From Lepiota brunneoincarnata (Eukaryota; Basidiomycota; Agaricomycetes; Agaricales; Agaricaceae): a stretch of DNA of 64,000 bases. The translations under genes and the position numbers were made by a program. Positions 27,368 to 49,389 of the stretch are shown here, piece by piece. Within the stretch, counting starts at the first letter, position 1; every line of letters starts with the position of its first letter. The notes below the pieces were generated by a model. The model was not told the DNA's origin, made no database searches, and saw only the letters and a list, made by a program, of their open reading frames with translations. The DNA lies in the NCBI GenBank assembly GCA_023014365.1, contig JAEBUN010000003.1, positions 2,418,001-2,482,000 on the forward strand. The letters are read 5' to 3'.

Positions 27368-28674
27368 TGATATGCCAGTTTCACGCCTATACATGAATTC
27401 TGTACTCCGGAATGATTCTCTACATAGAATCATTGGCTATATCATTAAAGAACCCTATAGAGGATTGGTACTATGTCCCGTAGTAGCCAGTTTGACCAAA
27501 CTGAGGATATTCGAGCCTTGGAAGTGTTCAAACCAGCTCATTATCACTAAGCTTAGTGAACCAAGCTATCAGAACACTCTCCGGAGGGATTCCGGACTTT
27601 ACATAGCCTATCAAGTATACTCCAGTCGCATTGAGGGACCTTACAAGCAGTTTTCTGATGAACTTGGATTTGTTGGAACCTAAAGAATGTACATAGCAGC
27701 TGTTGCAGGGGTATTACACCCATAGCGAGCCCAATAATGATGACTGGACCACAGAACGGAACGTCCAATGTTTGGGAGGCGACACCCGATGCCCAAAACC
27801 CTAGACATATCAAAGACTCATAATTAACGAGTGCTTTGTGGGTCCCGGCACCTCAGCATACAGCCTGACTGAGATTAATTACAACAGATCAAGGGATTGT
27901 ACATACACCATACATTCTGATCATAATTGATCTGGAGGCTTAACGCACTCGCGTGGACACAGAATAATGCAGACAAGCACGGAACATGTCTGGCTGGATT
28001 GCCATTCATCAATCAGAGAAAAACCCATAACCTAGGGGAAGGTAGAAATGCTGCCAAACCTTCCAAAATATTCTGTAGTACCTGTAACAATTAAGCTTAT
28101 TGTTTTCTATTTCATATTTACTATCTCTCGCATGTATCTAAACAATATAAATACGGTTGCGCTTGTTCATGGAGAAGCAAGAGGTCTCACCCCTGCTTCC
28201 ACATGCAAGTCTGTGAGCCATGATCAAGAATGGTTTCAGAGGACTATTTAGTGTGCGTCATTAAGTGTGATTTCTTCGGTCGTCGACCAACCCAGAGACA
28301 GAGACAGAGAACAGAGTCCAGAGTTTAGAGTTCCAGAGTGCTAGAGACAGAGACAGAGACAGAGAACAGAGAACAGAGTTCAGAGACCAGAGACCAGAGA
28401 CTAGAGACCCTGCACTTTGAATTGACAGGGATTGTCCTTTCACTGTTGCACTGTACAGCTAAGATAACTTCAATGGCTGTTTGTTAACCTCTAAAAACAC
28501 TATTCTCTTGAATTTCACTGTCAGACCGCACCACCAGAACACCCTAAAAGACGAAACTGTTCATTATCTATCTCATACTACTTGTATTAACTTAGGCTTA
28601 TCAAATTTCGACTAAGCTTAGTGAGAACAAGCCATTTATCTATATTAAAACCCACAAACATTTCCACCTTTTCA
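27368..28674 (+). repeat. 5' LTR of C (1307 bp)
   Basis: Carries TAAGCTTA at 27548, 28092 and 28613, the first within the 16-bp palindrome TCACTAAGCTTAGTGA (27544-27559), and a CAGAGA-rich simple repeat at 28295-28405. Compared with the 3' LTR there are many transitions, so this insertion is much older than D. Confidence 0.92.
28295..28405. repeat. CAGAGA-type simple repeat inside the C LTR
   Basis: Purine-rich array of CAGAGA/CCAGAGA units. Present in all three LTRs (also 49015-49120, and reversed at 4345-4470) with different unit numbers. Confidence 0.85.
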
Positions 28675-28676
28675 TC

Positions 28677-28694
28677 TGGAGCCCACCGCAAGGG
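28677..28694 (+). promoter_or_regulatory. Primer binding site of C (tRNA type)
   Basis: TGGAGCCCACCGCAAGG begins two bases after the LTR. The TGG start complements a tRNA CCA end, so C is tRNA-primed, unlike A, B, D and E. I cannot name the tRNA. Confidence 0.65.
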
Positions 28695-28804
28695 GGGTTT
28701 TCAGTTGAATTTCATGAGACAAACACCAAAAGACTTGGACACTGGCCCGCCTTTCACCTGCAAAGCAGAAAAAGGTTCAAGCAAAGACTGTAAAGTCACC
28801 CAAA

Positions 28805-30340
28805 ATGTCCTTCGAGAGCAGTCTCAGGAAGGTCGACCCCCCAAAACAGAGAACTACTCAGAATTCTAATCGTCCAGAAGGTTCTGTTCACGATAACAAA
28901 GACGATGGACGATGCAGAAAGGATAAATTGGGCAGTGTCATATGTGGACCAGGATATCCATGAAGAGTGGATGAGTTTTGTGGAGTTCCCAGCAGAAAGC
29001 TGGACAGGCTTCATAGAGAGATTGAAGAAAGAGTATCCCAAGACTGTGGCAGCTGAGCAGGGCTCAGTGCAACGATTGAGGGAACTCTGCACAGAGAGTA
29101 GAGGCATTGCGATGAATGAGGAGCATAGAATCTTGGGCTTCAAAAGGTGATTCATTCTAGAAGCAGAGAAGTGCCTGAAGTTGCCGGCAGTAGTCTTGAA
29201 CCGAGAGCTAGTCGAGTTATTTACGAGCGCACTGGACTCTGTGTTCCAGGACGTACTCAATGCAAGATTAGTGATCACTGGGGCACGTAGAACCGTGAGC
29301 AATGGGTCGGCACTAACTGTGAAGGATTTACATGAAGAGGACCCCTATGATTGGAGGATCGTCATGGATAAAGCTGTCGAAATTTTGATTGGCAAAACAC
29401 TTATGCAATCCCTTCATCAGGATTCAAGGCCAGTGAACTTGGCATCAATGAGCCATCCACCTGCGACGTCTGGAACAGGGACTTATGACCCTGTAGTAAA
29501 GCGAGAGCTGCAAAGCTTAAAGCAGAAGTTTCAGGATGAAGTCTCGCAGATGGAAGGCAGTCGCGCTGAGCTTAAGGACCTCATGAATATCCAGGGGCAT
29601 ACTTTAAAATCATACTTAGAGAGTTTGGCAAAGGATGGACATAATCATGCCAGCTATAATCACGCTCAGAGGAATACCGGAAGTGGGCTGGCAGGGTCAC
29701 TTTCTGATCGCAAGTGTTTCTACTGTTGGTTATTGGGGCATAGTTGGTTATTCTGCCTGGACATGGAGGCGGATAAACAAGCTGGCTGAATTAGAGTTGA
29801 AGGGAACAAAATATATATGGGAGATAGCTCAAGTATCCCTTGAGGAGAAGGGCCTATTAAAGAGAAAGTGGTGAAGTACTATGCAACAAAGGGACAACTC
29901 TTCGTTCAGGTACCAGAACTGCTGGAGGTTGAGCCTGAGTTACTGCAAGTGCCAGCAGCAGCAGTGTTTGCACAGAAAGCATTCCCAAAATCAGAAAACC
30001 GAAGGTCGCCAGTGGAAGAAGAAATCCGCTGTCTGAAGCAGTGCATGGAAATGTTGGAAACAGCTGCCATCCACGCCGGGAGTGCCCCAAAGGTTAAGCG
30101 TATGACCAGAAAGGATGATAATGTCAAGATACAGTCTTTGGCCAAGCAATTGGCCCAGATACAGGCTAAGCTTAGTGGTTTGACAGATGGTATGCCCTCG
30201 GCAAGCCAGTATTTGGACACCAGGAGTGGCGCAAAGACTTGGAACTTGGAGTCGGGTTTCTAAAGGGTTTGAGGAAGGAGCTGGCTCTGAAGAAGGTCAC
30301 CTTTGCCAGAGGACAGACTCCTGAGGACGCGTCAGATTCC
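28805..30340 (+). pseudogene. Gag of C
   Basis: Capsid-like region (ERINWAVSYVDQDIHEEWMS, SWTGFIERLKKEYP) at 28905-29150; a TGA at 29148-29150, then the same frame open 29181-29789 with a CCHC knuckle CFYCWLLGHSWLFC at about 29717-29760. A coiled-coil-like, Ala/Gln/Glu-rich segment follows (29868-30263). Stops are TGA except for small frameshifts. Encodes the particle protein of the element. Confidence 0.75.
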
Positions 30341-33300
30341 AAGTGATCAGAAGAATCAGAAAATGGGGAAATAGGGCAGACAACAGAGAAACCACCGTGT
30401 GCAGTAGCAGGGGAATTACCATATAGGAATGTGAAACCACTGCGCCCAGTCATTGAGGTACCACCGCTGCCTGTCAGAAGGATGGAATCATCCAAGAAGG
30501 AGCCTGCGTATAAGCACCAGGCCCCTATAGAGAGGAATGTCGATGTTGAGGAAGTACTCAGCAGGGTATTGAAGTGAGAAGCCTCAGTATCACATGGAGA
30601 ACTCTTGGCATTGTCACCTTTATACAGGAATGCTTATAGAGAGCGAATTATGAGAAAATGGGTACCCACAAATCAAAGCTTAATAGCAAGAGTTGGGTCC
30701 TTGGAAGATGATACAGAAGATATGGAAATTAATAGTGGGCCGGTACAGGTTATGATAACAGAGCTGGCAGATGGCTCTCAGAAGTATGATACAGTGCTCC
30801 AAGAATGCTTGGCAATGCAAGCCTGGGTAGCTCAGGATCCAATCATGCAGTACTTGGAGTCACTTCCCAGAAGAGACAGGGGATGGCAAGTGTTTATTGC
30901 TAAAGAATGCGAACCATTGAGAGTAGTTCTGACTCTGATAAATGGGATTCAGCAGGAAGAGGCCTTGCTAGATAGTGGGTCACAGATTGTATCTATGAGT
31001 CAGGAAGCGGTGATTGCATGTCAAGTTTCTTGGGACCCAGACACTATGATTAATTTGCAGAGTGTGAATGGGCAGGTTGAAAAGACTTGTGGGTTGGCAA
31101 AGAATGTAGGCTTTACCTGTGGGGGAGTCACAATCTATTTGCAAGTTCACATAGTTTGCAACCCCACATATTGAGTACTGCTGGGACAACCGTTTGATGT
31201 AATGACTGCTAGCAAAGTCAGGAATAGCGCCAGTGGCAAGCAAACCTTGGTTATTATGGACCCAAATACCAGAGAAAGGGCTGTGTTGCCAACTTATGCT
31301 CAAGGAGAGTGTAATCCTCTTAAGCTTAGAGAAAACAGTCAAAATTTTCAAGAAACCTTGATGAGTTGACTAAGGGACAAGGAGAGGTGGCTTGTATAAT
31401 AGACTATGATGATGAGAAGGGCCCTGTCGTTGCACAAACACTAAGCTTAGCGAAAGGAAGCTTCTCAGAGGCCGAGCTACAGCTAATGTTCATTGACCAA
31501 GTCATACGCGATGAGGACTGTCCACAAGAAGATAAAGCGATGGCGTTATTGTGCCTAGGATGCATAGCCAATGCGCAGGGCACAGAGGACCAGGGAATAA
31601 CTGTCTTCGAAACAGAAGAAGATGATGAAGATACGGTACAATGCCTGGCTGGGAAGAAATATAAACCAGTAGCCTTAAAAGTGAGGCCAGTGTTGGGTGA
31701 TCTACCAGAGAGATTCAGGATAAAATGAGAAATAAAAGGGGACCCGCTGGCAGAAATGCCTGAGCTTAGCATGCATCCTCCAGAGTTTGTCCTCACAGGC
31801 AGATATACTGAGGAGCATAAGCTTAAGCTGGACGAAGCCCATGCAGGGGATTTCTTGTGGCCAGAGGAAAGAAAGCTGATGCACCACATCATGATGCTTC
31901 AAGAAAAGGCATTTGCCTGGACAGATGAGGAAAAGGGATGTTTTAGGGAAGATTTCTTCCCACCAATCGAGATACCGACAGTAGAACATACTCTGTGGGT
32001 GGAAAAGCCCATTCCAATTCCACCAGCAATCTATGATGAAGTCTGTGCCATTATAAAAAGAAAGATTAGTGCTGGTGTATATGAGCCGTTGAACTCATCC
32101 TATAGATCCAGATGGTTCTGTGTGGTAAAGAAAGATGGAAAAAGTTTGAGACTGGTACACAGCTTGGAACTGCTGAACAGAGTAACAATAGCGCATTCAG
32201 GGCTGCTGCCAGCAATGGAAGATTTGGCGATGCACTTTGCAGGCAGGGCTTGTGGAGGCATCCTGGATCTGTATGTTGGATATGACGAGCGATTGTTAGC
32301 TGAGTCATCTCAGGACTCAACAACGTTCCAGACATCTTTTGGAGCGCTACACTTAGTGACGCTACCTATGGGATGGACCAATTCAGTGCCTATATTTCAT
32401 GAGGATGTAACAGCGATCCTAGCCAGTGAGATACCAGAATACATGATGCCATACATAGATGATGTACCTATCAGAGGACTGAAAACCAGATATGAGTTGC
32501 CAGATGGCACTGAAGAGACGTTGAAAAAGAACCCAGGGATCCGACGATTTGTATGGGAACACATGCAGGCAGTCAATAGGATTCTACAAAGGATGAAATA
32601 CGTAGGGGGAACCTTCTCTGGGCCCAAAACAACTATCTGCACTGATGAAATCACCGTAGTGGGTTTTGAATGCTCCTATAAAGGATGGTTGCCTGCCACA
32701 GACACCATCAGAAAAATTTTAAGATGGGGGGATTGTGAGAATGTCTCAGAGCTAAGGGGTTTTCTAGGAACAGCTACACGCTGCAGGAATCATATCCCAA
32801 AGTTCATAGCCATTGCTGCACCTCTATATGAAAAGCTTAAGAAGGGACAAGAGTTTGAATGGGGAGAAAACAAATGGAAAGCGCAGCAGGAGCTGAAAGA
32901 TGCAATTCAGCGCTGTTTCCTGACCAGGAACCCCAAATTTCTGAGTAAACAACCCATAGTAGTAGCCGTGGATACCTCATGGAGGGCAGTGGGATACTAT
33001 ATATATCAGAGAGATGTAGAAGACACTAAGCTTATACATTATGCGAAGTTTGGGTCAATATTATTGGACAAGAGACAGCAGAGGTATTCTCAGCCCAAGT
33101 GAGAGCTATGTGGCTTAAGAATGGTGCTGGAACAGGAGAAATATTTATTGTGGGGATCAAGAAATCTAGTAGTGGAAACAGACGTGAAGTTTCTCTTTGG
33201 GATGTTAAACAACACAGGAAAACTCCCAAACGCTACTGTAAACCATTGGGTGGACTTCATTAGATCGTTCCACTTCATGCTAGTACACAAAGAAGGGAAG

Positions 33301-33406: not shown

Positions 33407-34067
33407 TGTCATATCCACACCAAACCTAGAGCTTAACCATTAGGCTTCGGCTTCTCAACTCCACGTGTGCTCCACACGACAACCCTATGCCCTCCGACTC
33501 GGCCCCGACTGGCTCCGACCGCAACCCTTCGCCCCGATCACGCGACCTACCTCTACACGTGCCATGACCACCTGACCCTCGGTGCTCCCATTGTCCAGTT
33601 CTCCATTCTCCGTCCGTAATCAGAATACGTTACCAGTCTCCATACCCGTACCGGTCTCCATTCCATTCGAAATTATTCGTAATCCGCTTGTAACCATATG
33701 GGTCTCCGCTTCGCTCCGCACGTAGTCAGTACGGGTCATCATTCGTCGAGCTAGTAGTATATATACCGTAGGCACTTGGCTTGTACTCCTCAGTCTGATA
33801 ATCGAATCGAGCAGCGGACCAGTCCCCTGTTCCCTATCCTCCTCTCTCTCTGCCTCGCTCCGCTTCGGCCCCGACTTCCTGAAATACGGACTCGGACAGT
33901 AGGAGGGCACAGCACATAAGCTGAGGCCGCAAGTCCACTCTCCGCCCGAAGTACTCCGCCTCGGTCCCGCCGTCTACGTACTGACGTCGTCCCATCCCCC
34001 TGTTACCTTATACCAAGGATACCACCCCGACCCTCCGCTTCGGTTCCGACCCGCACCGGCTCTAACA
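33407..34067 (+). repeat. 5' LTR of D (661 bp)
   Basis: Contains four copies of the motif CTCCGCNTCGGNNCCG (33492, 33858, 33954, 34033) and the TATA box at 33758. Confidence 0.96.
33758..33802 (+). promoter_or_regulatory. D promoter: TATA box and inferred transcript start
   Basis: TATATATA at 33758-33765. About 30 nt downstream, AGTCTGATAAT (33792-33802) is the exact reverse complement of 34070-34080, implying an RNA start at about 33792 if priming is Tf1-like. Confidence 0.8.
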
Positions 34068-34069
34068 GT

Positions 34070-34080
34070 ATTATCAGACT
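34070..34080 (+). promoter_or_regulatory. Self-primer binding site of D
   Basis: ATTATCAGACT starts three bases after the LTR end and pairs over 11 nt with 33792-33802. No tRNA-type TGG is present. Confidence 0.78.
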
Positions 34081-34120
34081 CAAACTCCTCCTGTCCACCA
34101 CACTCTGAATTTTTCTAACC

Positions 34121-35527
34121 ATGGTCTCTCGAACAGTTACCCGTACTCGCACTCTGGTAACTCCAGCTGCTCGCCGTAGCAAACGCATCACTCGACAACC
34201 TCCTTCCGAGGAACTGCAACCCGACTCCCCGAGGGCTTCTCGCTCTCACCAACAATCGATCGCACCCTCGACCCCAGACCGTTTCTCTGAAGATATACAA
34301 CCTTCAGTATTCCGGACTCCCGACGGCCCCGACGACGGCCCCGACCCCAATCCTGATCCCAGCGACCCTGGTGATCCCGACGACTACCCTGACAATGGGG
34401 ACGGGCCCCCGGGCGACGACGAACCATCAGACAACGGCGACAACAACAACAACATCCCACCTGGCAACACCCGAGACGACCATGATAGACTCATACTCCG
34501 AGTTTTCCAACGCATAGCCGACCAAATGGACGGCCGTGGGAACTCTCAAGCCCCACAGCCTCCTCGATCTCCCCGTACCAAAGCTCGCGAACCTGACATC
34601 TTTACAGGTTCCGACCCCGCCAAACTCAAACCCTTCCTCTTCCAATGTCGGCTCTATTTCCGTACTAACCCGGCCCAGTTCGCTATCCCCGCCACCAAGG
34701 TCAACTTCGCGTTAACGTACCTTACCGGCGTGGCCCAGCAACACTTCGAAATCGGCCTCGACGAGGCCGACAACCACGGAATAATGCACGATTGGATCGA
34801 GGACTGGGATCAGTTCACCCTGGAACTGCAGACCAATTTCGGTCCCGCGGATCCGACCGGAGAAGCTGCTGAGCAGCTTGACTCCCTCTGAATGCGCTAT
34901 GACGAAAAGATCGCCATCTACAACGTCGACTTTCTCCGTCTGGCCGGCCAACTCCGCTGGGGTGATGAGGTATTCTGTCACCGCTACTACAAAGGCCTCC
35001 CCGACCGCATCCAGGACATTCTGTCCAATCGGCCCGACGGCAAGCCCGACACCTTCATCGAAATGCGAGCAGCAGCGATGAAGATCGATGCTCGCTACTG
35101 GGAACGCCAACGCGAGAAGGCCCGCGCCAAAGCCGCTTCGGACCCGACCGCCTCTAGGAAACCTGGAGGCAACCCATCCCCTTCCACCGCGACAAACCAT
35201 CAACCTGCCGCCAAGCCTGCCAACAGTAACAACAAAGGCAGCACCCCCAGTAATAACATCTTCAAGGGCAATCCGCCCAACCCGTCCGCCGGTCAGAAAT
35301 CGGCCCCGCCAAGGTCCGACCTTACTAGTAAACTTGGTAAGGACGGTAAATTAACCCCCGAGGAACGTCAACGACGTTTCGACAATAACCTCTGCCTTGT
35401 CTGCGCAGATCCCAATCACAGGGCTGCCAACTGCGACAAGAAGAAATTCCCTGACGCCAAGGCTAAAGGCCGACAGGCTCAGATTCCCGAGACAGACGCG
35501 CCGGCTCTCCCGAGCTCGGAAAAATAG
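34121..35527 (+). CDS. Gag of D (one in-frame TGA)
   Basis: Starts at ATG 34121 shortly after the primer site. Acidic Asp/Pro-rich N-terminus (residues ~60-120), capsid domain (EPDIFTGSDPAKLKPFLFQC; LQTNFGPADPTGEAAEQL), one TGA at 34889-34891 between DSL and MRYDEKIAIYN in an otherwise unbroken 468-codon frame, a Lys/Pro/Ser-rich linker and a CCHC knuckle CLVCADPNHRAANC (about 35390). The TGA is one CpG transition from CGA (Arg), so this copy probably makes a truncated Gag unless it is read through. Ends TAG at 35525-35527, overlapping the pol frame. Confidence 0.9.
35467..35527 (+). promoter_or_regulatory. Gag-Pol overlap with likely -1 frameshift site
   Basis: The pol frame is open from 35467 with no start codon until 35665 and lies at -1 relative to gag. 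At the gag end, five A residues precede the TAG stop (GAA AAA TAG); slippage of AAA by one base would continue as AAA ATA GTC into pol. Shifty-stop type slippage is inferred, not proven. Confidence 0.5.
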
Positions 35528-38500
35528 TCGGCGGTCCTCAGGCCTCTGCACAGACTGAGGATCGCATTGAACTCTGCTGTGCTCCAGAGAGTTTCCATCT
35601 CAATGCGTCCGCTCTTTCCGATCCAAACTCTCTTCATATTACATTAACTTCTCCTTTAGTTACTTTGTTACCCTCTGTTTCCGCTCCTGTACTCTCCGCT
35701 TCGGACCCGCTTTCTACAACGGACAATGTAGTTAGTTCTGACTTTTCTTCTTCTTTTTCTCCTTTCAAAGCTCTTGTTGATAGTGGTTCTACTCACTGTT
35801 TTGTGGACTCTTCTTTCGTTCGTTCTCATAGTATTCCAACCTCGTCCATCCCGGCTATTGAACTTCGGTTATTTGATGGGACCTCAAACGCCTACATTAC
35901 GGAACTTGCGCAACTGCCTGTATCCTTCCCCTCCGGTGAATCTATCATTTTGGACACTTATGTCACCCAGCTCGACTCTTCCTGTTCTGTGGTCTTAGGA
36001 CACAACTGGCTCACCCGCTACAATCCGTTGATTGACTGGGCTTTGGGCAGTATTACTTTCCGGCCATCCCTACTCGAGAATCCTGCTTCCGTCTCTACCT
36101 GCGTCGCACCCGCATCGGCTCCGCCTATGGCCGCCCCTGACTCTCCTGACCTAGGTTCACCACCCCTGTCCGGGACCTCGTCCCAATCTGTCCCCCTTGC
36201 GAAACCGCACATCTCCTTGATAAACGCTCCTGCCTTTATCCGCGCTGCCAAGCTCCCTGGCTCCCAACAATTCCGAATCAATCTTTCCGCCGCCTCTGCA
36301 TCGGCCGCGTCCTCTTCTGTCTCCGAGGAACCGCCTGACCTCTCGTCTATCCCCGAGGAATACCACGAGTTCGCTGATGTTTTCAGTAAATTGCGTGCTG
36401 ACACACTTGCTCCACACCGCCCTTATGACCTCCAGATTAACCTAGAGGATGGCGGTCAGCCTCCGGTCGGTACCATTTACTCCCTTTCACAATCGGAGCT
36501 TGGAGCTCTACGTGATTTTATTGACGAACATTTATCTATTGGTTTCATCCGCCCCTCCACTTCCCCTCATGGAGCCCCGGTCCTCTTCGTCAAGAAAAAG
36601 GACGGCTCCCTCCGCTTATGCGTTGATTTTAGAGGTCTCAACCGTATTACCAAGAAGGACCGCTATCCCCTTCCGCTCATCTCCGACCTCTTAGACTCCC
36701 CTCGCAAAGCTCGCGTATATACCAAGATCGACCTCCGCCACGCCTACCATCTTGTCCGCGTTGCTAACGGCGACGAATGGAAGACCGCCTTTCGGACCCG
36801 CTACGGCTCCTTCGAATGGATGGTTATGCCTTTCGGCCTCACCAATGCCCCCGCCACCTTCCAGCGGTTCATGAACGATATATTCAAGGACATGCTCGAC
36901 GTCTGCGTTACTATCTACCTTGACGACATTCTGATATACTCCGACAACCATAGTATCCATCGTGACCAAGTCAAGGAGGTCCTCAAGTGGCTCCGCCAAC
37001 ACGGTCTATACGCCCGCCCTGACAAATGCCAGTTCCACTCTGACACAGTGGAATATCTCGGCTACATTCTCTCCCCCGATGGCCTCCGAATGGACCAATC
37101 TAAGGTCAAGACCATCCAGGAGTGGCCTGAGCCTAAGAAAGTCAAGGACATCCAGTCCTTCTTAGGCTTCGCCAATTTCTACCGTCGCTTCATTCACGGA
37201 TACTCTGACATCGTCGTTCCGCTCACTCGCCTCACCCGCAAAGACGTGAAGTGGAATTTTACTGATGATTGTCGCGAGGCCTTTAACTCCCTGAAGGAAG
37301 CATTTATCTCCGCCCCCGTCCTCACTCCTTGGGTCCCCGACGCTCAGATCATTGTCGAGACCGACGCCTCCGACTACGCCCTTGCGGCAATCCTCTCTAT
37401 CGTCACCGACGATGGGGAGGTCCATCCCGTTGCATTCCATTCCCGCACCTTTAACACGGCCGAACTCAACTATGACACTCACGACAAGGAACTCCTGGCG
37501 ATATTCGAAGCCTTTCGCATCTGGCGGCACTATCTCGAAGGTGCCCCCCTTGCTATTGATGTGGTCACTGACCACAAGAACCTCGAATACTTCTGCACCA
37601 CCAAGATCCTGACTCGCCGCCAAGCTCGTTGGTCCGAGTTCCTATCCCAATTCCACCTCGTCATCCGTTTCCGACCCGGCCGCCTCGGCACCAAGCCTGA
37701 CGCCCTAACTAGACGATGGGACGTCTACCCTAAAGGGGGGAATAGCGACTATGCATCAGTCAACCCGCACAACTTCCGGCCTGTGTTCACTCACGAACAG
37801 CTCGCGGCCTCCGTCCGTGCCACCACTCTTTACGCCCCTTCCCTTCGCGCAGCTGTAGTCATGGACCTCGATCAGCTACACCGCGATATTCTCGCCGCCC
37901 TACCAGCGGATCCGACCGCTTCCGCCCATCTTGCCAGCCCAGAAGGCCGTTGGTCAGTTAATGATAAAGGTTTCCTCCTCTTAGACGACAGAATCTACGT
38001 CCCTGACACCGACAATCTCCGACTTCGGGTCCTCCAGTACAAGCATGATCACGTCCTAGCCGGCCACTTCGGTCAGAATAAAACGCTGGAACTCATCCGG
38101 CGCGAATACACCTGGCCTAGCGTCCGCACCTTCGTCAAGGATTTCTGTAAGTCTTGCGTCACCTGTATGAGGTCTAAACCCCAGCGCCATCGCCCCTACG
38201 GTCTCCTTAAGCAACTCCCCATCCCCGAACGCCCTTGGAATTCAATCTCCATGGACTTCATTGAAAAACTTCCCGCCTCCTCTGGCTATGACGCCATCCT
38301 GGTAATCGTTGACAGACTCACCAAGCAATCCCTCTTCATCCCGACTTATGATACCGTCACCTCCTCCGACCTCGCCCGCCTATTCGTCCTCCACGTCTTC
38401 TCCAAGCACGGCGTACCCGAACATGTTACCTCCGACCGCGGCTCCGAATTCGTCTCCCACTTCTTCCGCTCATTGGGACAAGCCCTTGACATGAAGCTAC

Positions 38501-39330: not shown

Positions 39331-39403
39331 GTTACTGACCACACATCGCACCAAGAAACAACCATGTATTAAACAAACCAAAAAAAAAAACAACCCCGTA
39401 CAA

Positions 39404-40489: not shown

Positions 40490-40539
40490 GGGGGTAGGAG
40501 GTTAAGTTGTGTCCTCTCAAATTCGAATCAGTTCACCTT

Positions 40540-40550
40540 TTTTTTTATAC
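40540..40550 (-). promoter_or_regulatory. TATA-like box for the D antisense gene
   Basis: On the minus strand GTATAAAAAAAAA lies about 55-60 nt upstream of the ATG at 40489, between the gene and the 3' LTR. Confidence 0.5.
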
Positions 40551-40611
40551 CCTCGTGGAATTTTCCGGTGGGCCCCGGTCTAGACCGCCTTGGGCCTCGA
40601 GGCTCGGCCCT

Positions 40612-40621
40612 AAAGGGGGGG
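40612..40621 (+). promoter_or_regulatory. Polypurine tract of D
   Basis: AAAGGGGGGG ends three bases before the 3' LTR at 40625. Confidence 0.85.
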
Positions 40622-40624
40622 CAC

Positions 40625-41285
40625 TGTCATATCCACACCAAACCTAGAGCTTAACCATTAGGCTTCGGCTTCTCAACTCCACGTGTGCTCCACACGACAA
40701 CCCTATGCCCTCCGACTCGGCCCCGACTGGCTCCGACCGCAACCCTTCGCCCCGATCACGCGACCTACCTCTACACGTGCCACGACCACCTGACCCTCGG
40801 TGCTCCCATTGTCCAGTTCTCCATTCTCCGTCCGTAATCAGAATACGTTACCAGTCTCCATACCCGTACCGGTCTCCATTCCATTCGAAATTATTCGTAA
40901 TCCGCTTGTAACCATATGGGTCTCCGCTTCGCTCCGCACATAGTCAGTACGGGTCATCATTCGTCGAGCTAGTAGTATATATACCGTAGGCACTTGGCTT
41001 GTACTCCTCAGTCTGATAATCGAATCGAGCAGCGGACCAGTCCCCTGTTCCCTATCCTCCTCTCTCTCTGCCTCGCTCCGCTTCGGCCCCGACTTCCTGA
41101 AATACGGACTCGGACAGTAGGAGGGCACAGCACATAAGCTGAGGCCGCAAGTCCACTCTCCGCCCGAAGTACTCCGCCTCGGTCCCGCCGTCTACGTACT
41201 GACGTCGTCCCGTCCCCCTGTTACCTTATACCAAGGATACCACCCCGACCCTCCGCTTCGGTTCCGACCCGCACCGGCTCTAACA
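40625..41285 (+). repeat. 3' LTR of D (661 bp)
   Basis: Same length as the 5' LTR. Differences found: CACG versus CATG (33563 region), CACA versus CACG (33721 region), CCCG versus CCCA (33993 region), each one CpG transition. Confidence 0.96.
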
Positions 41286-41290: not shown

Positions 41291-42306
41291 TCAAAGAAGA
41301 TCCGGGGGCTGCAGATCCGTTACCCTTGGAAGCCTTCCATGATGAGATTGACAGTCGCTCTGGCTTCAACCAGGGTCTGGCGTGTGATGTGTATGATTCC
41401 GAGTATGAGCTGGATCAAGCTTGGGAAGAGTACCTGGATGAACAACAGGCTAAGCTTAGGGTTATAGAAGACCCAGCGTGCCCAGAAAACCACTGACAAG
41501 TACTAAGCTTAATGACGGATGTCAGGCTAGTGCCAGATTTCGAAGAGGAAAAGTTGACCAAGATAGAGGAAGCGTATGATGAATCGCATAGGACAGATAC
41601 AGCACAAATACAAGATGGAAGAATACCCAAAGTCAGGGAATTCCTGAAAACAGGGGGCAGTAGTGCAGCTGAAGGCTTGGATGAGCCAGATCTGCATAAG
41701 CTTAAGTATATGGTGGAGCATTTCTTCTTGGATGAAGAGGGGAGACTGTATAGGACGAGTCCTAGCGGTCAACATCAGCTAGTAGTGGATAAGGAGCAGC
41801 ATATGTATATGTTGCAAGCCAGCCACGACTTCCTAGGACACAGAGGAATATACGCAACCACTAAGCTTATAACACAGAGGTTCTGGTGGCCGGAAGTTGA
41901 AGGAGACGTAGCTTGGTATGTGCAATCATGCCATCTATGCCAGCAACAGCAAAAGGCGATCATTGAGATGCTGCCAATAGTAACGCCCATGCCATTGATA
42001 TTCCAAGTGCTACATGTGGACATGCTATATATGACACCAAGTTCTAATGGGTGTAGCTACATTGTGCATGGAAGGTGTGGACTGTCATCCTGGATGGAGG
42101 CAAAAGCTTTGAGAAAAGAGAATGCTAGTTTGATTGCGCAGTAGTTATTTGAAGATATCATTTGCTGATAGGGCTGTATAGTGAAGATTGTCACAGACAA
42201 TGGTTCTCCATTTAAGAAAGCTGTTCGATGGCTGGAAGAAAAATATGGGATAAAAGGAGTAACAATATCTCCTTACAATTCCAAAGCAAATGGGATTATT
42301 GAAAGA
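41291..42306 (+). pseudogene. Pol of C, part 2: integrase finger and core
   Basis: Continues the C pol frame after D. The HHCC finger (HDFLGHRGIYATTKLITQ, then CHLCQQ) and core Asp region (VLHVDMLYM) are in 41512-42144; VTDNGSPF follows at about 42190, and the frame reaches GIIE at 42300 where a solo D LTR enters. TGA or TAG stops lie at 41494 and around 42144-42170. Confidence 0.85.
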
Positions 42307-42967
42307 TGTTAGAGCCGGTGCGGGTCGGGACCGAAGTGGAGGGTCAGGGTGGTATCCTTGATATAAGGTAACCGGGGGACAGGGCAAAGTCAGTACGTAG
42401 ACTTTGGGACCGAGGCGGAGTACGTCAGGTGGGGGGTTGGACTTGCGGCCTCAGTGTATGTGCTGTGCCCTCCTACTGTCCTAGTCCGTATTTCAGGAAG
42501 TTGGGGCCGAAGCGGAGCGAGGCAGAAGAGAGGAGAGGATAGAGAACAGGGAGCTGGTCCACTGCTCAATTCAATTATCAGACTGTGGAGTACAAGCCAA
42601 GTACCTACAGTATATATACTACCAGCCTTATGAACTATGACTCATACTGACTACATGCGGAGCAAAGCAGAGACCGATCTAGTTACAAATGGATTACAAA
42701 CAGATTATGAATGGAATGGAAACAGGTACAGGTATGGAGACTAATAACATATCTTGACTATGGACGGGAAATGGAGACGGGGGTATGAGACACCAAGGGT
42801 CAGGTGACCATGGCACGTGTGGAGGTGGTCGCGTGATCGGGGCAGTGGGTTGCAGTCGGAGCAGGTCGGGGCCAAGTTGGAGGGCAGAGGGTTGTTGTGT
42901 GGAACACACATGGAGTCGAGAAGCCGAAGTTTAAATGATTAGACTCTGAGTTGGCATGGATATGACA
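42307..42967 (-). repeat. Solo LTR of D family inside C integrase (661 bp)
   Basis: Reverse complement of the D LTRs, the same length but diverged by many transitions, flanked by a perfect 5-bp duplication AAAGA (42302-42306 and 42968-42972). Older than the full D element. Confidence 0.95.
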
Positions 42968-42972: not shown

Positions 42973-43665
42973 GCCCACTGGGATGTGTGGCAAATGTTGT
43001 ACAAAGCTACAGATGGAGATGTCAAAAAGTGGTATTGGCACCTACCACACGTTATGTGGGCAGATCAGATAACCATTAGAAAAGGAATGGGGTGTTCCCC
43101 ATACTTTCTGGTAACCGGAGCGCATCCGACGCTACCTCTGGATGTCAAAGAGGCCACTTGGCTAGTACAACTACCAAATAAGTACTTAACCACAGCCAAG
43201 TTGATAGGATACTGAGCTCAGGCTTTGGCAAAACATGTTCGGCATGTTGAGGAGGTGCATCAGCATGTTTCAGACACTAAGCTTAGCAAGGCTTTGGAGA
43301 TGGAACGACAAGCAGCACATAAGATAAAAGATTATTGTTTCGGCCCAGGAGATTTAGTATTAGTGAGAAACACAGCTATAGAGAGCTCAGCAGACAGGAA
43401 GATGAAACCCAGGTATCTAGGACCCATGGTGGTCATATCTAGATCAAAGGGAGGATCATATATCCTGGCAGAGTTGGATGGCTCTGTATGGCAGAATAAA
43501 GTGGTGGCGTTCAGAGTAATTCCCTACTTAGCCAGAAAACATATGCCGTTGCTGCTGGAGTTACAAGAGTTGTTAGATCTGTCACCAGAGGGACTGAAGA
43601 CCCTAGAGGAGACTACTGAGGATGAGCCTAGTGACAGATGGGAGCCAGAAGAGTTGGAGGGATAG
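42973..43665 (+). pseudogene. Pol of C, part 3: integrase C-terminus
   Basis: Removing the solo LTR joins GIIER to AHWDVWQMLYKATDGD. The end of the core (GMGCSPYFLVTGAHPTLPL) leads past a TGA at 43213-43215 to a C-terminal domain open 43225-43665 ([21 protein letters not shown]). Stops at 43665 with no chromodomain. Confidence 0.83.
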
Positions 43666-43741
43666 GAAAAACCTGATATTGTGGACAGAACTATCTACTT
43701 ATTGAAGGAAAACTATCCTGGGGACTGTAAAAGCGTTAAGC

Positions 43742-45513
43742 TTAAGCAGGGGAGGACTTGTCCAAGTTGGAGAGGTTGCGCAAAAGGCTTTTGAGATGGA
43801 TGCGCTCTTGAATGAGGAATTGGAACCTCTTTGAGTTGGCTTCAAGTGAGGGAATAGCATCAATGAAGTCCTGGCTGAGCAAATTGAGGTCGCATTTAAC
43901 TGACCGAGTGTCATCACCATGAGATTCGGACTTGTACTCGTCGCAAGAGTGAGACAGGAGGTTTTGGAGTTCCTGGAGCAAACAAGTTGCCCGGGAGAAG
44001 TGTCAGAACTGTTAAGCTTAGTGAATAGAAGTGAGAAATTGCCCACCAGATAAGCCTGCAAAGGTGCACTCATCAGAAGTAAACTTGGTACGGGCACGCT
44101 TGGCAGTATTGGCATTGGCTTTGGCTAGAATCTGTTCAGCCCAGGCATAACAGCAGTGTTTAGTGTTCATATTGGGAACTTGACAATAGGGAAGAAGACG
44201 GACAGTCCCTTTAGATGAGGAGGACTTTTTGAGAGCCTCCTAGCAAAGGATGAAGTCAGAATCAGTGGTTAGGGGGAGTAGAGCTGGTGCACCATGTCGG
44301 AGGTAGACAAACAATGCTTGCGATAAGGCAAGACTACACAAACCTCTTCAACGATAGCTTGAGAGACCTCCTCATTGACCATCATGTCCTGAAGGTGAGC
44401 GATTATCTCAGCCAATGTAATAGGTTGAGAAGCAGCTATATTACCAGTGTCAGCACTGGTTGCTTGGGAGTTGGAAGCACTGGTCATACTCTCAGCAAGC
44501 TTGGTATCGGTGTCTACCACAACAGCAGCAGAGACAGGGGCCTTGCAACCTTTGCGAGGCTAAGCTTATACATGAGGAGACAATTGGAGCCAAAAGAATG
44601 CTAAGCTTATGCGTTTGGGGACAGCAGAGCCTTTGGCAATGTTGGAGGAAGTAGAGCCAGTTGTGGATGATGGGTTCTGAGCCTCTTTGGTCCTGGATTT
44701 GTGGGATTCTTCAGAACAAACGCGATTAATGCGGCTACAGCATTCAGAGAGCGCCTTATAGATCGCGGGCATCTCATAAGACGAATGGTAGTTGTTTTGG
44801 TAAATTTCGTAGAGCTTGCGGATACGGAAGATGTAGTCCTGGTTGACATGAAGCTTGATAGCCTCATTATTCTCTGATAACGCTTCAATATAAGCAGACT
44901 AGAAATGATTTAGAAATGGCGAGAGAAGCATGGAAAGAGTAGACATATCCCAGGGGCATTGAATGCAAGGAGAGCCTTCTCGACGAGGGGACAAGCGACT
45001 TGGCTGTTTTGCAGGCACTGAAGACGACCTTTGGCGTTGCTGATGAGATTGTCGAGCTCGACCTGGAGATGGGGGATAGAAGAAGCCATTTTCTTGTGAA
45101 GGGTGTCTGCTAGGATGAGGCATCGCTCCCTTGCTTTTATAAGAAAAGGCCGTAGGCAGTGATGACAAATCATAACGAGTGGATGAAGAGCACCCTCCAC
45201 CCTAAGCTGATGACCTGAGAGGCCTAGGAAACCTGTAATCTTGAGTAGCCAGCCTTCGACAGACTTGCTGAACCACAGTTGCCTTATTAGGTAACATGTC
45301 GCCAGGGTCTTGCGGTTATCAGTGTGCACAGGGATTCTGATGGAACAGTGAGGGCACCAATTTCAATTTGGCTAGGGGGAGATGGGTCCCAAGGGGCACT
45401 TCAGTTTGACAGTTTGACGCAAGCTTTTTTGTGAAGAGCTTTTTTGAACATCGTGGACAGGCTGGTTTGGGCTTGTAAGTAAACTGGAGCGGATGAGCTG
45501 GGTCGCTACGCAT
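43742..45513 (-). CDS. Second antisense gene of C (multi-exon, approximate)
   Basis: Minus-strand exonic segments lie between the integrase end and the first antisense gene: a CPRC-containing segment (45513-45430) and a WCPHCSIRIPV segment (about 45350); a helical stretch (LQVELDNLISNAKGRLQCLQ, 45060-45000); after a TTTCTAG acceptor near 44901, an open segment (NNEAIKLHVNQDYIFRIRKL, YEIYQNNYHSSYEMPAIYKA, 44885-44740); a Ser/Thr-rich part with ITLAEIIAHLQ (44520-44390); and a final helical exon (FIDAIPSLEANSKRFQFLI) ending at 43742. Exon borders are not resolved. Paired CX2C motifs suggest a zinc-binding start. No family recognised. It could instead be the tail of the upstream antisense gene. 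Confidence 0.45.
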
Positions 45514-45739
45514 TGTGGATCATGGCACGTTGAGGGGCAATAGGCACCTGCAGAAGTGTCAGAGAAATATCTAATGGGCGTATAAGCAGCTGGAAGCCTT
45601 AGCTTAGCTCAGGGTCTTCAGAAAGGCCTCAAGCTTAACTCAGAAAGATACCAAGAGACAAGAATCTTTAATTATGAATGTATCTACAGGACAAAATAGG
45701 ATGTTACATTCAAGAGATAAAGGTATAAAAGGGGAGCGG

Positions 45740-47772
45740 CTAGTTTAAGTCCTCCAAGATAGACTCCGGATCCTGAGTCATCGGGAAAGCAAGGAAGAGA
45801 AGTGATTTGAGCTTCTCAAATTCTTCATATGTCGGGACTCCTGGAAAGTTGTTGGCAAACTCAAAGAACACCTTGACATCTTCAATGGAGTTGGCCATCC
45901 CCATCTCAACAAACGCCATGTTGTTACCTTCCAAGGCCATCCTGGTAGCTTGCATTTCCTGGACGAACTGATAAACCACCCAATGGTGGTGAAACACCAA
46001 AGCCTCGTAAGTGACGTGGTTTGCCTCCAGGCTGACCAAGCTGGAGGACACAACATGCGCAAAAGCGGCCAGATCTAGAAAATAAAGAGAATAAGAAAGG
46101 AGAAAAATAGTGAACAAAGAAACTTACAGTATTCACTGGTCAGTGAAGACGTGACTAGGGCATTTGCAACGCCAGCCAAGACTTGCGGATGGTCTGCAAA
46201 GGTGCAGGGGTAATTATAGAGGTTGCAGCTACGACACTTCTTACCCTTGCCCAGAGGCTTGCACTCCAACTTATGAGCAGCGCAGGAAGGACACCGAGAC
46301 TGAGGTGGCACGTACTGGGGTATATGTCAAAACCCAGTAAGGAAACACAAAAAAACTTGGAGAACGTACCAAAAGCTGGCTAGCTGCCAGCAGCCTAGGA
46401 AAGTCCTCACAAAAGAGTGGGACTGGGTGGTGGTATCCATGGTCCCAAATAATGGTGGCCTCAGAGCATCGAATGCAAACTCGGGGAACGTATTTCTTTG
46501 TCTGCGTGTTGGAACTCTTCTTGGATGAAAGGATGCATTGTTGACATGACAGGCCAGCATGAGGAGACTCTTGAGGGATCTCTGGAACCACTGGGCTATG
46601 CAAACGAGAAAGGACGGGGGTCAGAGAAGCTAAGACCACAGTCTTGAAAAACAAAAGTCAGGTTCTTGAGGGGCAGGCAAAGGCTCTAGAAGGAGCTCCA
46701 AATCTGGAGAAGGTGAAATCTCCACAGCGCTTGCGGGAGACTTGACTGGAGCACCAGCTAAGTGAGGTGGTGATGGTGTTGGGCACCTAGGCAAAGCCAG
46801 CACATGTTGCCCATCCAGAGAAGAGGACCAGCTAAAGATTTTACAGAGGTCAGCTTGAGAGACCTCAGGGACCGGAGAATGCGATGACAAGTTAGAACCC
46901 GCCAGGAATAAGGGGAGAGAGGGTGGCATCGATGATTTTGCCCTCTGTTTGCCTTTAAAGGCAGCTGGTATACGTGCTAAAGCAGAAGTCAGTGGAAAGA
47001 ACAAATATATCGTGAAAAACAATTAAGCTTACGCATTGAAGTAGCAGAAGAGAGTACAGGGGAAGAAGGCCGGTTTGTTGAAGGGCCCGGCACCTCCGAA
47101 CCTGATGCAATACCCAGGGGAGGGAGCACCAGCGAGTCTTCCTCATCCAGGGTGTGCAGAGAGACGGCGAGAGGGGGCAGTGACATTGAACTGGACAAAG
47201 CCTCTGTGGATAATCCACCAGAGGGCCTGCCAATGGGGATACCTGATGAGGGTTCTGCAGAAAATCTGGCAGAGCGCTCATTGGTTGGATTGCACAATGA
47301 CACAATGGAAATCATGCGTCTTGGCACTGGAGCGGCCAAGGGAGAGGCCAGCAGAGGAGTTGGTTTGCGGGGCAGAGAGTATGGTGGAGGAGGGGTCCTT
47401 GCCACACCTACCTGATGATTTCCGCAAGCTCCTCAAGCTCCTTGCCCTCCTCTAGCCCTCCTAGTATGCAGTGCTGGTGGTTCCCATTGAGGCAGGAGGT
47501 TGCGACGCACTGGTAGGTGAATAGTGAGACCTAAAAGCAGAGAAAAACATGAGTGATGACAATGAGAATGGGGGAAAAACACTGACTCACGTTGCACGAT
47601 TGAAGGAGAAGACGCATTTCCTGGAGCCATAAGGGCGCTCCTTGGCTCAGTATAGTCTGAAGACAGTGTTAGCAAGACAAGGACAACAGTAAAACAAACA
47701 TTGCTTACTAGAGGAAGAATCTGAATCTTCATCATGACAAGCTCTCTTGTTGCTGCACATGTTTCTATCCAT
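45740..47772 (-). CDS. First antisense gene of C: multi-exon protein with Zn2Cys6-like cluster
   Basis: Starts at ATG 47772 (MDRNMCSNKRAC). Resolved exons: 47772-47709, 47656-47591, a Ser/Pro-rich exon ending at 47043, one beginning at 46976, one ending at 46370, 46314-46128 and 46075-45740. Introns are 52-66 nt, e.g. GTAAGC...CTAAC...TTCAG, GTAAGC...CTGAC...TTTAG and GTAAGT...TTCTAG, and the checked junctions keep frame. The parts at 47530-47410 and near 46650-46600 are unresolved. Exon 46314-46128 encodes CPSCAAHKLEC, eight residues, then CRSCNLYNYPC, the spacing of a fungal binuclear zinc cluster. Upstream exons hold CQQC and CIRC pairs; the last exon is a helical domain (SLVSLEANHVTYEALVF, MANSIEDVKVFFEF). 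Exons remain open while the sense pol has decayed. Function unknown; DNA binding inferred. Confidence 0.68.
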
Positions 47773-48086
47773 TGTTGTTGTGGGCAGGCATAGAAGACTG
47801 GAAGTTGAGATGAAAATAGACAAGTAAGAAGTGAGAGGGAGAACAAAAGAGAGGACACGAGACCTTGGGACTTTTAAAAGACCCAATAACAAGATAAAAA
47901 TTTAGGCTATAGCAACAAGAAGTTGATCTATACATTTAAACTTGGTGACATGACATCATCTTGGAATAAGCTTAGCAAAAGTATGCTACTCTCAAAGCTG
48001 GTGAATGTTCTAGAACATAGAGCGTATCAGAGAGACTCAGATACTGCAAATTTGATGGAGATAATGACTGAGGACAGTCAGCAATT

Positions 48087-48099
48087 GGTTAGGGGGAGA
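48087..48099 (+). promoter_or_regulatory. Polypurine tract of C
   Basis: GGTTAGGGGGAGA directly abuts the 3' LTR at 48100. Near-copies occur at about 44264-44275 and 45369-45380. Confidence 0.75.
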
Positions 48100-49389
48100 T
48101 GATATGCCAATTTCACACCTATATATGAATTCTGTACTCTGGAACGATTCTCTACATAGAATCATTGGCTATATCATTAAAGAACCCTATAGAGGATTGG
48201 TACTATGTCCCGTAGTAGCCAGTTTGACCAAACTGAGGATATTCAAGCCTTGGAAGTGTTCAAACCAGCTCATTATCACTAAGCTTAGTGAACCAAGCTA
48301 TCAGAACACTCTCCGGAGGGATTCCGGACTTTACATAGCCTATCGAGTATACTCTGGTCACATCAAGGGACCTTACAAGCAGTTTTCTGATGAACTCGGA
48401 TTTCGTTGGAACCTAAAGAATGTACATAGTGGCTGTTACAGGGGCATTATGCCCATAGCAATGACCGGACCACGGAACAGAACATCCAACGTTCGGGAGG
48501 CAACACCCGATGCCCAAAACCCTAGACATATCAAAGACTCATAATTAATGAGTGCTTTGTGGGTCCTGGCACCTCGGCATACTGCCTGACTGAGATTAAT
48601 TACAACGGATCAAGGGATTGTACATACGCCATACATTCCGATCATAATTGATCCGGAGGCTTAACGTGCTCGCATGGATGCAGAATAATGCAGATGAGCA
48701 CGGAATACATCTGGCTGAATTGCCATTTGTCAATCAGAGGAAAACCCATAACCTAGGGCAAGGTAGAAATGCTGCCGAACCTTCCAAAATATTCTGCAGT
48801 ACCTGTAACAATTAAGCTTATTGTTTTCTATTTCATATTTACTATCTCTCGCATGTATCTAAACAACATAAATACGGTTGCGCTTGTTTGTGGAGAAGCA
48901 AGAGGTCTCACCCCCGCTTCCACACGCAAGTCTGCAAGCTGTGATCAAGAACGGTTTCAGAGGACTATTTAGTGTGCATCATTAAGTGTGATTTCTTCGG
49001 TTGTTGACCAACCCAGAGACAGAGACAGAGAACAGAGTCCAGAGTTTAGAGTTCCAGAGTGCTAGAGACAGAGACAGAGACAGAGAACAGAGTTCAGAGA
49101 CCAGAGACCAGAGACTAGAGACCCTGCGCTTTGAATTGACGGGGATTGTCCTTTCACTGTTGCACCATACGGCTAAGATAACTTCAACGGCTGTTCATTA
49201 ACCTCTAAAAACACTATTCTCTTGAATTTCAGCTGTCAGAACGCACCCCCAGAACACCCTAAAAGACAAAACTGTTCATTATCTATCTCATACTACTTGT
49301 ATTAACTTAAGCTTATCAAATTTTGACTAAGCTTAGTGAGAACAAGCCATTTATCTATATTAAAACCCACGAACATTTCCACCTTTTCA
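48100..49389 (+). repeat. 3' LTR of C (1290 bp)
   Basis: Partner of 27368-28674. TAAGCTTA at 48280, 48813, 49308 and 49328. Followed by the ACGT duplication and the rest of A copy 2. Confidence 0.93.

Follow-up and report, generated by a model that had tools for sequence, protein, structure and literature searches.

The window, a 64,000-nucleotide stretch of the Lepiota brunneoincarnata genome, contains element C, a Ty3/Gypsy LTR retrotransposon of this fungus. The assignment follows from its LTRs and target-site duplication and from the order of RT-RNase H and then integrase. The 5' and 3' LTRs are 92.4% identical, and ACGT flanks at 27364-27367 and 49390-49393 were read by eye. Homologous proteins number 872, and an RT/RNase H domain annotation is carried by most of the matches listed (120). 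At least 93 copies of the RT/RNase H region are present in the genome. The copy in the window is broken: RVT_1 (E 3.4e-04) and RT_RNaseH_2 (E 5.4e-04) scored below the Pfam cut-off, and a Pfam scan of one gag-region ORF (29151-29786) found no gag match. Other LTR elements are nested in C, and two antisense genes lie between pol and the 3' LTR.

Table 1. Features of element C and associated elements in the window, with the positions of exact TAAGCTTA sites.
Feature	Position	Strand	TAAGCTTA sites	Basis or remark
C solo LTR	4086..5393	-	4140, 4160, 4656, 5205	89.7% to C 5' LTR
C 5' LTR	27368..28674	+	27548, 28092, 28613	
gag-like region	28794..30263	+	30167	by position; ORFs; broken in window copy
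Aspartyl-protease-like ORF	30578..31174	+		gag-asp_proteas E 6.9e-05, 23.8 bits, below cut-off 28.2
Protease-RT linker	31175..31728	+	31321, 31442	
Reverse transcriptase / RNase H ORF	31729..33102	+	31818, 33027	
Element D, younger nested LTR element	33407..41285	+	0	terminal repeats identical over 300 nt compared
Integrase zinc-binding region	41497..42144	+	41451, 41504, 41697, 41862 (with upstream linker)	Integrase_H2C2 E 1.9e-16, above Pfam cut-off
D-like solo LTR nested in C	42307..42967	-		inverted match to D LTRs, 80-96% in pieces
pol 3' end, SH3_Tf2-1-like (weak)	43216..43665	+	43278	E 0.0054, below cut-off
pol end to antisense gene 2 interval	43737..44020	+	43737, 44013	
Antisense gene 2, apparently spliced	44561..45362	-	44561, 44602	ORFs
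Antisense gene 1, several exons, from 3' LTR side inwards	45740..47901	-	47024; 47967 (upstream of gene)	ORFs; splice sites read by eye
Zn2Cys6-like exon of gene 1	46078..46326	-		135 matches in genome
C 3' LTR	48100..49389	+	48280, 48813, 49308, 49328	

The window has 27 occurrences of the palindrome TAAGCTTA, compared with an expectation of 0.6; 23 belong to element C and 4 to its solo LTR. Dinucleotide shuffles of the window had a mean of 0.62 and a maximum of 4, and 0/100 reached 27. Within C (27368-49389), 7 sites are located in the LTRs and 16 are spread across 10,885 bp of internal sequence, for which a second-order Markov model built from C predicts 0.17. The initial annotation had reported these 16 internal sites against a chance expectation of about 0.2; all exist, 15 at the exact coordinate and one displaced by ten (47034 for 47024). 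It gave 3-4 sites per LTR, and 3, 4 and 4 were counted in the 5', 3' and solo LTRs. The longer extension that it saw once per LTR is TCACTAAGCTTAGTGA, present three times in the window, one in each LTR. In agreement with its description, the exact count was zero in D, in the neighbouring elements and in the remainder of the window. The observation itself is confirmed, and the interpretation attached to it is partly supported.

An exact genome-wide count gave 5370 TAAGCTTA. Control palindromes of equal composition had 419 (TTAGCTAA), 675 (AATCGATT) and 842 (ATTCGAAT) occurrences, the latter two containing CpG. Among 100 matches listed, all from the start of contig C1, 96 had another listed site within 5 kb. 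The fourth of the 4 isolated matches is the last one listed and was seen from one side only; the sequence around two of the four was read and had no similarity to C. Two apparently near-complete C copies carry 27 and 26 sites, 19 of them internal by position in each copy. The density in C is about 27 sites per 13-15 kb; in the single copy tested, the sites are dispersed and their spacing resembles random placement. C copies lacking the motif, which the initial annotation had named as a refuting finding, were not encountered: each of 29 other copies, read over about 4.4 kb around the RT, carries 4-9 sites. The sites are genuine and, among the copies read, a property of the whole family.

Individual sites are widely shared. 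The linker sites 31321 and 31442 are kept in 30/30 and 28/29 covering copies, and the four sites of the integrase region and its upstream linker in 27/28, 27/29, 26/29 and 26/30, in the order of Table 1. At two further places the window copy differs from other copies. At position 28593 its 5' LTR has TAGGCTTA, where its 3' LTR and two further copies have TAAGCTTA; at position 45203, within antisense gene 2, it has TAAGCTGA, where 28/28 other covering copies have TAAGCTTA. A further place in the RT ORF, 31761, is occupied in another subfamily.

Retention across diverged C lineages is far above that of other 8-mers. Compared with five diverged copies, the window sites were intact in 9/12, 9/9, 6/6, 2/3 and 4/4 cases (30/34 in total, one of the four misses being a one-base alignment shift). 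Of all 8-mers in these alignments, 24-35% were retained; the figure was 34-43% for those free of CG, CA and TG, and 32-51% when two G/C were required as well. Across the five lineages, 4/4 LTR sites were invariant where covered (coverage was four lineages for two of these sites), compared with 215/1234 LTR 8-mers and 54/214 of the matched class. Of two sites in the antisense region, one was invariant in all five lineages and one was kept in four; 81/2393 8-mers of this region were invariant. The earlier proposal to test synonymous positions gave a weakly positive result: among recent copies, these positions vary slightly less inside TAAGCTTA than outside it (P 0.04-0.07).

Exact sites predominate. 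In the antisense part of a sister copy (4.4 kb), 8 sites are exact and a single variant has one mismatch (1.5 expected); 12/13 AAGCTT in 6.1 kb of this copy belong to TAAGCTTA. Exactness is not absolute, with a modest excess of one-base variants in pol: four pol-side segments of other copies had 8 exact sites and 4-5 variants (1.5-1.7 expected). The window copy has 16 exact sites and 9 variants (4.4 expected).

In pol, the motif lies within coding frames and at one position appears to impose a residue. At one RT locus, 6/8 sites are read as xxT AAG CTT Axx (Lys-Leu), the usual frame according to the initial annotation, and 2/8 as xTA AGC TTA. At 31818, the best-covered pol site, 84/109 homologues have Glu or Asp and 2 have Leu, which indicates at the level of sequence that the motif imposes Leu in place of the acidic residue. 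Such an effect on the protein does not extend to all sites. Leu is present at 33027 in 15/90 homologues, nine of them with Lys-Leu, and the Lys-Leu pair is found at 31761 in 7/12 homologues shown with letters. The six best-scoring homologues have no Lys-Leu at 31818 and none at 33027. The two best-covered pol sites had gaps in 0/109 (31818) and 0/87 homologous RT rows. Of the earlier proposal of nucleotide-level selection or amplification, selection is the part that is supported, by lineage conservation, the predominance of the exact 8-mer and the Leu at 31818; amplification by insertion is unsupported because the RT homologues are gap-free at these sites.

CpG transitions in C copies amount to 0.076 per opportunity, compared with 0.012-0.016 at other C contexts. 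This heavy decay is read as a sign of methylation. It was not lower near TAAGCTTA (Spearman 0.04, P 0.45, 432 columns).

Antisense gene 1 is, judged by its substitution pattern, under strong purifying selection. Among 28 copy pairs, dS could be estimated for 20, and 18 of these had a dN/dS of 0.05-0.18; five pairs with dS of 0.47-1.34 gave 0.06-0.09. Gene 1 of the window itself is a decayed copy. In gene 2, synonymous exceeded non-synonymous change in a frame-specific manner between the two copies compared. One exon of gene 1 has the spacing CX2CX6CX8CX2CX6C, which fits the Zn2Cys6 binuclear cluster pattern CX2CX6CX5-12CX2CX6-8C. The six Cys are invariant in 5/5 aligned copies of four lineages, an alignment that left out two other decayed copies, C37 and C25d. 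The exon resembles Gal4-type transcription factors (Pfam PF00172) in this spacing and differs from them in its Zn_clus score, which stays below the cut-off of 21 bits (best 17.1 bits, E 0.0059, in a sister copy; 12.9 bits for the copy in the window). No Zn2Cys6 protein was found when the PDB was searched by profile, and the lone exon was predicted with a poor fold (pLDDT 59.7). Classical Zn2Cys6 proteins bind CGG triplets; TAAGCTTA, unlike these targets, has no CGG. The antisense product, called the cluster protein in the initial annotation, is a plausible candidate for the TAAGCTTA binder. A distant, LTR-like family 'E' encodes a gene 1 homologue with 54% identity in the Zn exon; its 7 kb contain 0 TAAGCTTA, and no substitute motif was found there.

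Several origins of the pattern were weighed. A mutational or amplification artefact, such as insertion footprints, gene conversion or a CpG/RIP-like decay product, is hardly credible. The strong CpG decay of the C family makes CpG-free 8-mers look more conserved because decay-prone 8-mers are lost faster; however, TAAGCTTA also exceeds the CG/CA/TG-free baselines, CpG decay gives TG or CA and the motif has neither, covered sites are gap-free in homologues, and little-diverged copies hold the site set. An origin by insertion or CpG decay is contradicted by these findings. A role in RNA packaging or dimerisation, splicing or RNA decay is very unlikely: a palindrome can drive RNA kissing, and inspection by eye places 47024 at a probable splice donor of antisense gene 1, but perfect two-fold symmetry and sites in both transcription units and on both strands would better fit DNA recognition. 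Given the lineage conservation, the exactness, the Leu at the pol site and the failure of insertion and CpG decay as explanations, selection probably acts on the double-stranded DNA form of TAAGCTTA.

Two other alternatives involve a protein that binds the motif. TAAGCTTA may be bound by a protein of the host, be it a transcription factor, an insulator or a nucleosome-excluding factor, with C having accumulated sites for expression or openness and the antisense gene serving another purpose. Family 'E' favours this somewhat unlikely explanation, since gene and motif are uncoupled where a gene 1 homologue is kept without TAAGCTTA, as does the missing CGG; but isolated sites are few (4 among the 100 matches listed), and a host factor alone leaves the sites throughout the gag-pol body unexplained. 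Element-encoded transactivators are exemplified by foamy-virus Tas and the HTLV regulators. It is clearly unlikely that gene 1 or 2 acts only in this way, on LTR and antisense-promoter sites, with the body sites as enhancers or a titration sink. The 3-4 sites in each of the three C LTRs of the window, the invariant LTR sites and site 47967 upstream of gene 1 would suit a transactivator, but most sites are in the body, a large share of them kilobases away from the LTRs, and the random-like spacing seen in a single copy also speaks against it.

VANDALs are MULE DNA transposons. In Arabidopsis, the VANDAL-encoded VANC reads a short family-specific motif, and the entire element loses methylation; the excerpts considered describe sequence-specific anti-silencing by a repeated motif for these plant elements (PMC5735166, PMC10398659). 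Their motifs, YAGTATTAY for VANC21 and AGTTGTMC for VANC6, are non-palindromic and differ between related families (PMC5735166, PMC10398659), and sit in non-coding tandem repeats (PMC5735166). As far as these excerpts go, C shares with VANDALs a short family-specific motif that has built up within the element; in C a reader is suspected, and the copies are CpG-decayed. It differs by its LTR organisation in place of a MULE backbone, by an 8-bp perfect palindrome at single dispersed sites that include the pol frames, and by the same motif across lineages with gene 1 dS of about 1. A Pfam scan of a subset of single antisense exons gave no match to VANC domains (DUF1985/DUF287) with E of 1 or less. 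Membership of C among the VANDALs is ruled out by the LTR structure, the dispersed motifs and the lack of a VANC domain in the exons scanned; the parallel drawn in the initial annotation is a reasonable one where the mode of action is concerned.

C also resembles Retand-type elements, in the partial descriptions used, by an antisense gene between pol and the 3' LTR with protein-level selection. It differs by a Zn2Cys6-like domain instead of the Retand TRP28 and by a fungal instead of a plant host; the same descriptions give tandem repeats and mention no dispersed motif. The antisense exons scanned with Pfam gave no TRP28 (PF04195) match with E of 1 or less. Some fungal DNA transposons carry a TET/JBP dioxygenase gene, which has been proposed to act against cytosine-methylation silencing or C-to-T hypermutation (PMC12730594). 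They share with C a fungal transposon gene with possible anti-silencing function. Unlike C, they are DNA transposons that encode an enzyme, and the part of the source considered describes no repeated recognition motif (PMC12730594).

The preferred reading, held tentatively at a little less than an even chance, is that TAAGCTTA may mark the entire element for a DNA-binding protein that acts as a dimer, the antisense product being the likeliest candidate, with VANC-like anti-silencing. The motif would be a family-specific recognition code over the whole body of the retrotransposon, and a protein with two-fold symmetry would bind it in double-stranded DNA. With less certainty, this protein may be C's own gene 1 product with its Zn2Cys6-like domain. 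Most speculatively, and by analogy, binding along the entire element could keep chromatin accessible and counter host CpG-methylation silencing, with the opening limited to its own copies as by VANC for VANDAL transposons. The motif-free family 'E', the unprotected CpGs beside sites and the weak synonymous conservation count against element-encoded anti-silencing. So do the one-base variants in pol, the Leu or Lys-Leu that homologues have at 33027 and 31761, the missing CGG, the sub-threshold Zn_clus score, the negative PDB search and the decay of gene 1 in the window. The full version, a convergent VANC in which an antisense Zn2Cys6-like protein reads a non-CGG 8-bp palindrome at about 27 marks in LTRs, introns and enzyme genes, opens its own copies and reshapes parts of pol, is possible and rather doubtful.

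If true, a fungal LTR retrotransposon would provide a second case, unrelated to the plant VANDALs, and would suggest that self-marking is a general way for elements to address only their own copies. Regulatory DNA selection would override amino-acid preference in a polymerase gene, and a zinc-cluster protein would possibly have a new DNA specificity.

The 8-bp palindrome TAAGCTTA occurs 27 times in the window, whereas 100 shuffled sequences averaged 0.62 and never exceeded 4. Of these occurrences, 23 are located within element C (27368-49389) and 4 within the C solo LTR (4086-5393). The C internal sequence (10,885 bp) has 16 sites, with 0.17 expected. The initial annotation had listed 16 internal coordinates, of which 15 are exact and the remaining one is 47024, not 47034. 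It had also reported the motif as absent from D, a younger LTR element nested in C, and the count in D is indeed zero. The genome (55.6 Mb, 95 contigs) contains 5370 copies of TAAGCTTA versus 419, 675 and 842 copies of the control palindromes of equal composition TTAGCTAA, AATCGATT and ATTCGAAT; AAGCTT occurs 20786 times. TCACTAAGCTTAGTGA is present once per C LTR in all three LTRs of the window and 529 times in the genome, pointing to a similar number of LTRs that carry this site. Of 100 listed genome places, 96 have another listed TAAGCTTA within 5 kb, and two of the four isolated places were read and had no match to C. Judged from listed positions around RT matches and not from sequence, two apparently near-complete C copies elsewhere have 27 and 26 sites, of which each has 19 in the internal part. 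A regular spacing was not seen in the one copy analysed (coefficient of variation of the gaps 1.02 vs 0.95 for random placement). A strict rule for the flanking bases was rejected, since the genome has GTAAGCTTA 341/338 times, also at C-typical positions.

Element C belongs to the Ty3/Gypsy-type LTR retrotransposons. Its window copy has decayed and is interrupted by two insertions, D and a D-like solo LTR; of the domain matches in this copy, Integrase_H2C2 exceeds the Pfam cut-off, and protease, RT and RNase H fall short of it. The RT has 872 homologous proteins, and many of them carry an RT or RNase H annotation; the named ones are from Meripilus and Mycena, which suggests a fungal, probably agaricomycete, host. 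The genome has at least 93 RT matches (93 scored out of 1296 candidates), and the Zn exon of antisense gene 1 has 135. Both C LTRs include a short-repeat tract rich in AGAGAC/CAGAGA, at 28287-28410 in one of them. Element D, with a GC content of about 0.55, has terminal repeats that are identical over the 300 nt compared and a 1221-aa frame that by eye resembles pol; it has probably inserted very recently. The C RT had no match in viral contigs. A viral link through an LTR 16-mer was dismissed as chance: seven stretches in viral contigs have only one or two TAAGCTTA each in the part fetched.

Features of element C, insertions in its window copy and copies of the LTR-like family E
Feature	Position or extent	Remark
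C LTRs	1.3 kb each	ACGT on both flanks
Two antisense genes, apparently spliced	between pol and 3' LTR	strand opposite to pol
Element D	33407-41285	nested, breaks window C copy
D-like solo LTR	42307-42967	breaks window C copy
Family E copies	L072/L075 (G000 contig C35, about 354-361 kb) and L076 (C60)	

The palindrome is very probably under selection at the nucleotide level. Window sites are intact in five diverged copies in 9/12, 9/9, 6/6, 2/3 and 4/4 cases (total 30/34, not independent because the copies share ancestry). As a baseline, these alignments keep 24-35% of all 8-mers intact; for 8-mers without CG, CA or TG the share is 34-43%, and it is 32-51% where they also have two G/C. In the five-lineage alignment, four LTR sites are invariant wherever covered, with a baseline of 215/1234 and 54/214 for the matched class. 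Of two sites in the antisense region, one does not vary among the five lineages and the other is kept in four (baseline 81/2393). The site at 46361 is present in one of five lineages. By eye, the palindrome at 47024-47031 shares bases with GTAAGC, a probable splice donor on the antisense strand, so that conservation of this site may have two causes. Conservation at synonymous positions, expected from the nucleotide-level selection proposed in the initial annotation, was weak among recent copies: degenerate third positions inside sites are less variable than expected, at P 0.04-0.07.

The sites are mostly exact. A sister copy has eight exact sites and one single-mismatch variant in 4.4 kb (1.5 expected), and 12 of 13 AAGCTT in its fetched 6.1 kb belong to TAAGCTTA. 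Four pol-side segments of other copies have eight exact sites each and 4-5 variants vs 1.5-1.7 expected. A strictly all-or-none motif was rejected on this modest excess, in which two variants are alternative states at 31761 and 31818. Neither the variant excess nor the RT matches below the cut-off have a bearing on which protein binds.

At the RT locus of one copy, six of eight sites are read as xxT AAG CTT Axx (Lys-Leu) and two as xTA AGC TTA; the remaining frame yields a stop codon. In the column of 31818, 84 of 109 homologues have Glu or Asp, two have Leu and none has a gap; Leu is found at 33027 in 15 of 90, and the Leu columns of the other four pol sites are covered by few homologues (5-18). 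Lys-Leu is absent at 31818 and 33027 in the six best-scoring homologues (P0001-P0006) and occurs in more distant ones, once at 31818 and nine times at 33027. At 31761, it is common (7 of 12 homologues shown). Some sites thus originated in the C lineage through substitutions away from the usual residue, and at least one makes use of a residue pair that was there before. The initial annotation had named amplification as an alternative to selection; insertion footprints were rejected, as homologous proteins are ungapped at the sites (0 of 109, 87, 17, 11 and 4 rows with letters on both sides; one site had no such rows). A CpG- or RIP-like origin was considered as well: CpG decay in C is strong, but the 8-mer has neither TG nor CA, and this origin was rejected. 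Turnover is visible at 31761 and 31818, where 19 of 30 copies, including the window's, have 31818 alone and 11 have 31761 alone; this 30/30 pattern reflects just one or two events in the lineages and was left out of the statistics. The more distant copy C73 has both.

The 8-mer has perfect two-fold symmetry, is mostly kept exact and is found in LTRs, gag-pol and antisense exons and at a probable antisense intron boundary. This suggests a dimer on double-stranded DNA, and a dimeric DNA-binding protein is likely to read TAAGCTTA. For the product of antisense gene 1 as this reader, the chances are about even. All five aligned copies of its Zn exon, from four lineages and including the distant LTR-like family E, have CX2CX6CX8CX2CX6C, a spacing typical of Zn2Cys6 domains in fungi. 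The Pfam match stays below threshold (best 17.1 bits vs a cut-off of 21), a profile search of the PDB found no Zn2Cys6 protein, and the fold predicted for the single exon was too poor to use. In gene 1 (up to 213 codons), dS was estimable in 20 of 28 copy pairs, the other eight being saturated, seven of them with E. dN/dS is 0.05-0.18 in 18 pairs, 0.20 in one and 0.80 in one very similar pair (dS 0.03); some compared copies are decayed. These values indicate maintenance of the antisense protein. Parts of gene 2 also show protein-level constraint (one pair of copies). For gene 1, pS between copies B and C73 is 0.58; for gene 2, pS is about 0.2-0.3 in likely frames, and the LTR is 93% identical. 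The larger silent divergence of gene 1 between two subfamilies (window 45740-47901, L073) suggests an exchange of the gene 1 module between lineages. A 569-aa spliced query found no gene 1 homologues elsewhere (region 320-560, 2761 candidates). The last exon had one 99% match among 15 candidates, probably from the same species or one close to it.

The chief argument against a gene 1 reader is family E, which has a gene 1 homologue (54% identity in the Zn exon) and no motif: TAAGCTTA is absent from about 7 kb, and no clear substitute was found there. This argument is limited by the age of the E repeats and by the E domain, which also differs. Over 2.9 kb, two E copies share about 99% identity; the LTR-like repeats inside one copy agree with each other to 73-83%, and the stretch read is without pol. 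By eye from translation, an apparent histidine-kinase gene adjoins E. CCGCAAG was rejected as an E motif, its enrichment being partly due to repeated LTR-like DNA, and it is not kept in other C copies.

C copies have a signature of methylation type. CpG transitions amount to 0.076 per opportunity versus 0.012-0.016 at other C contexts (about 5-6 times; L010-L038). Among near-identical copies (0.1-0.3% other change), some have 7-11% of CpGs changed and others 0-1.5%, as judged on 20 of 30 copies, the 12 with the highest and the 8 with the lowest values; this suggests CpG methylation or CpG-directed hypermutation that acts unequally on the copies. CpG decay is not lower near sites (Spearman 0.04, P 0.45, 432 columns, without the diverged rows L010, L021, L030, L035 and C73).

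In the literature covered, largely outside subscription journals, no LTR element with such a motif was found described, and TAAGCTTA as text gave nothing relevant by title and abstract start among the papers listed. The anatomy of C resembles that of the plant elements Retand and Grande, which carry antisense, possibly DNA-binding genes; no TRP28 was found in the antisense exons of C that were scanned. The initial annotation had drawn a parallel to the Arabidopsis VANDAL transposons and their anti-silencing VANC proteins. As far as sequence tells, the mode of action is similar; the parallel fails in the features that define the family, as C has no MULE backbone, no VANC domain was found in the antisense exons scanned, and the motifs are not in non-coding tandem repeats. 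VANC21 is described as binding a 9-base motif and stripping methylation from whole elements (PMC5735166).

The location of sites over the body of C, and not in promoters alone, suggests a role in chromatin. A dimeric protein would bind TAAGCTTA along the whole element as double-stranded DNA, and this binding may act on chromatin and counter methylation-type silencing. Given the methylation-type signature and the analogy to VANC21, anti-silencing is a possible, still tentative purpose of the TAAGCTTA code.
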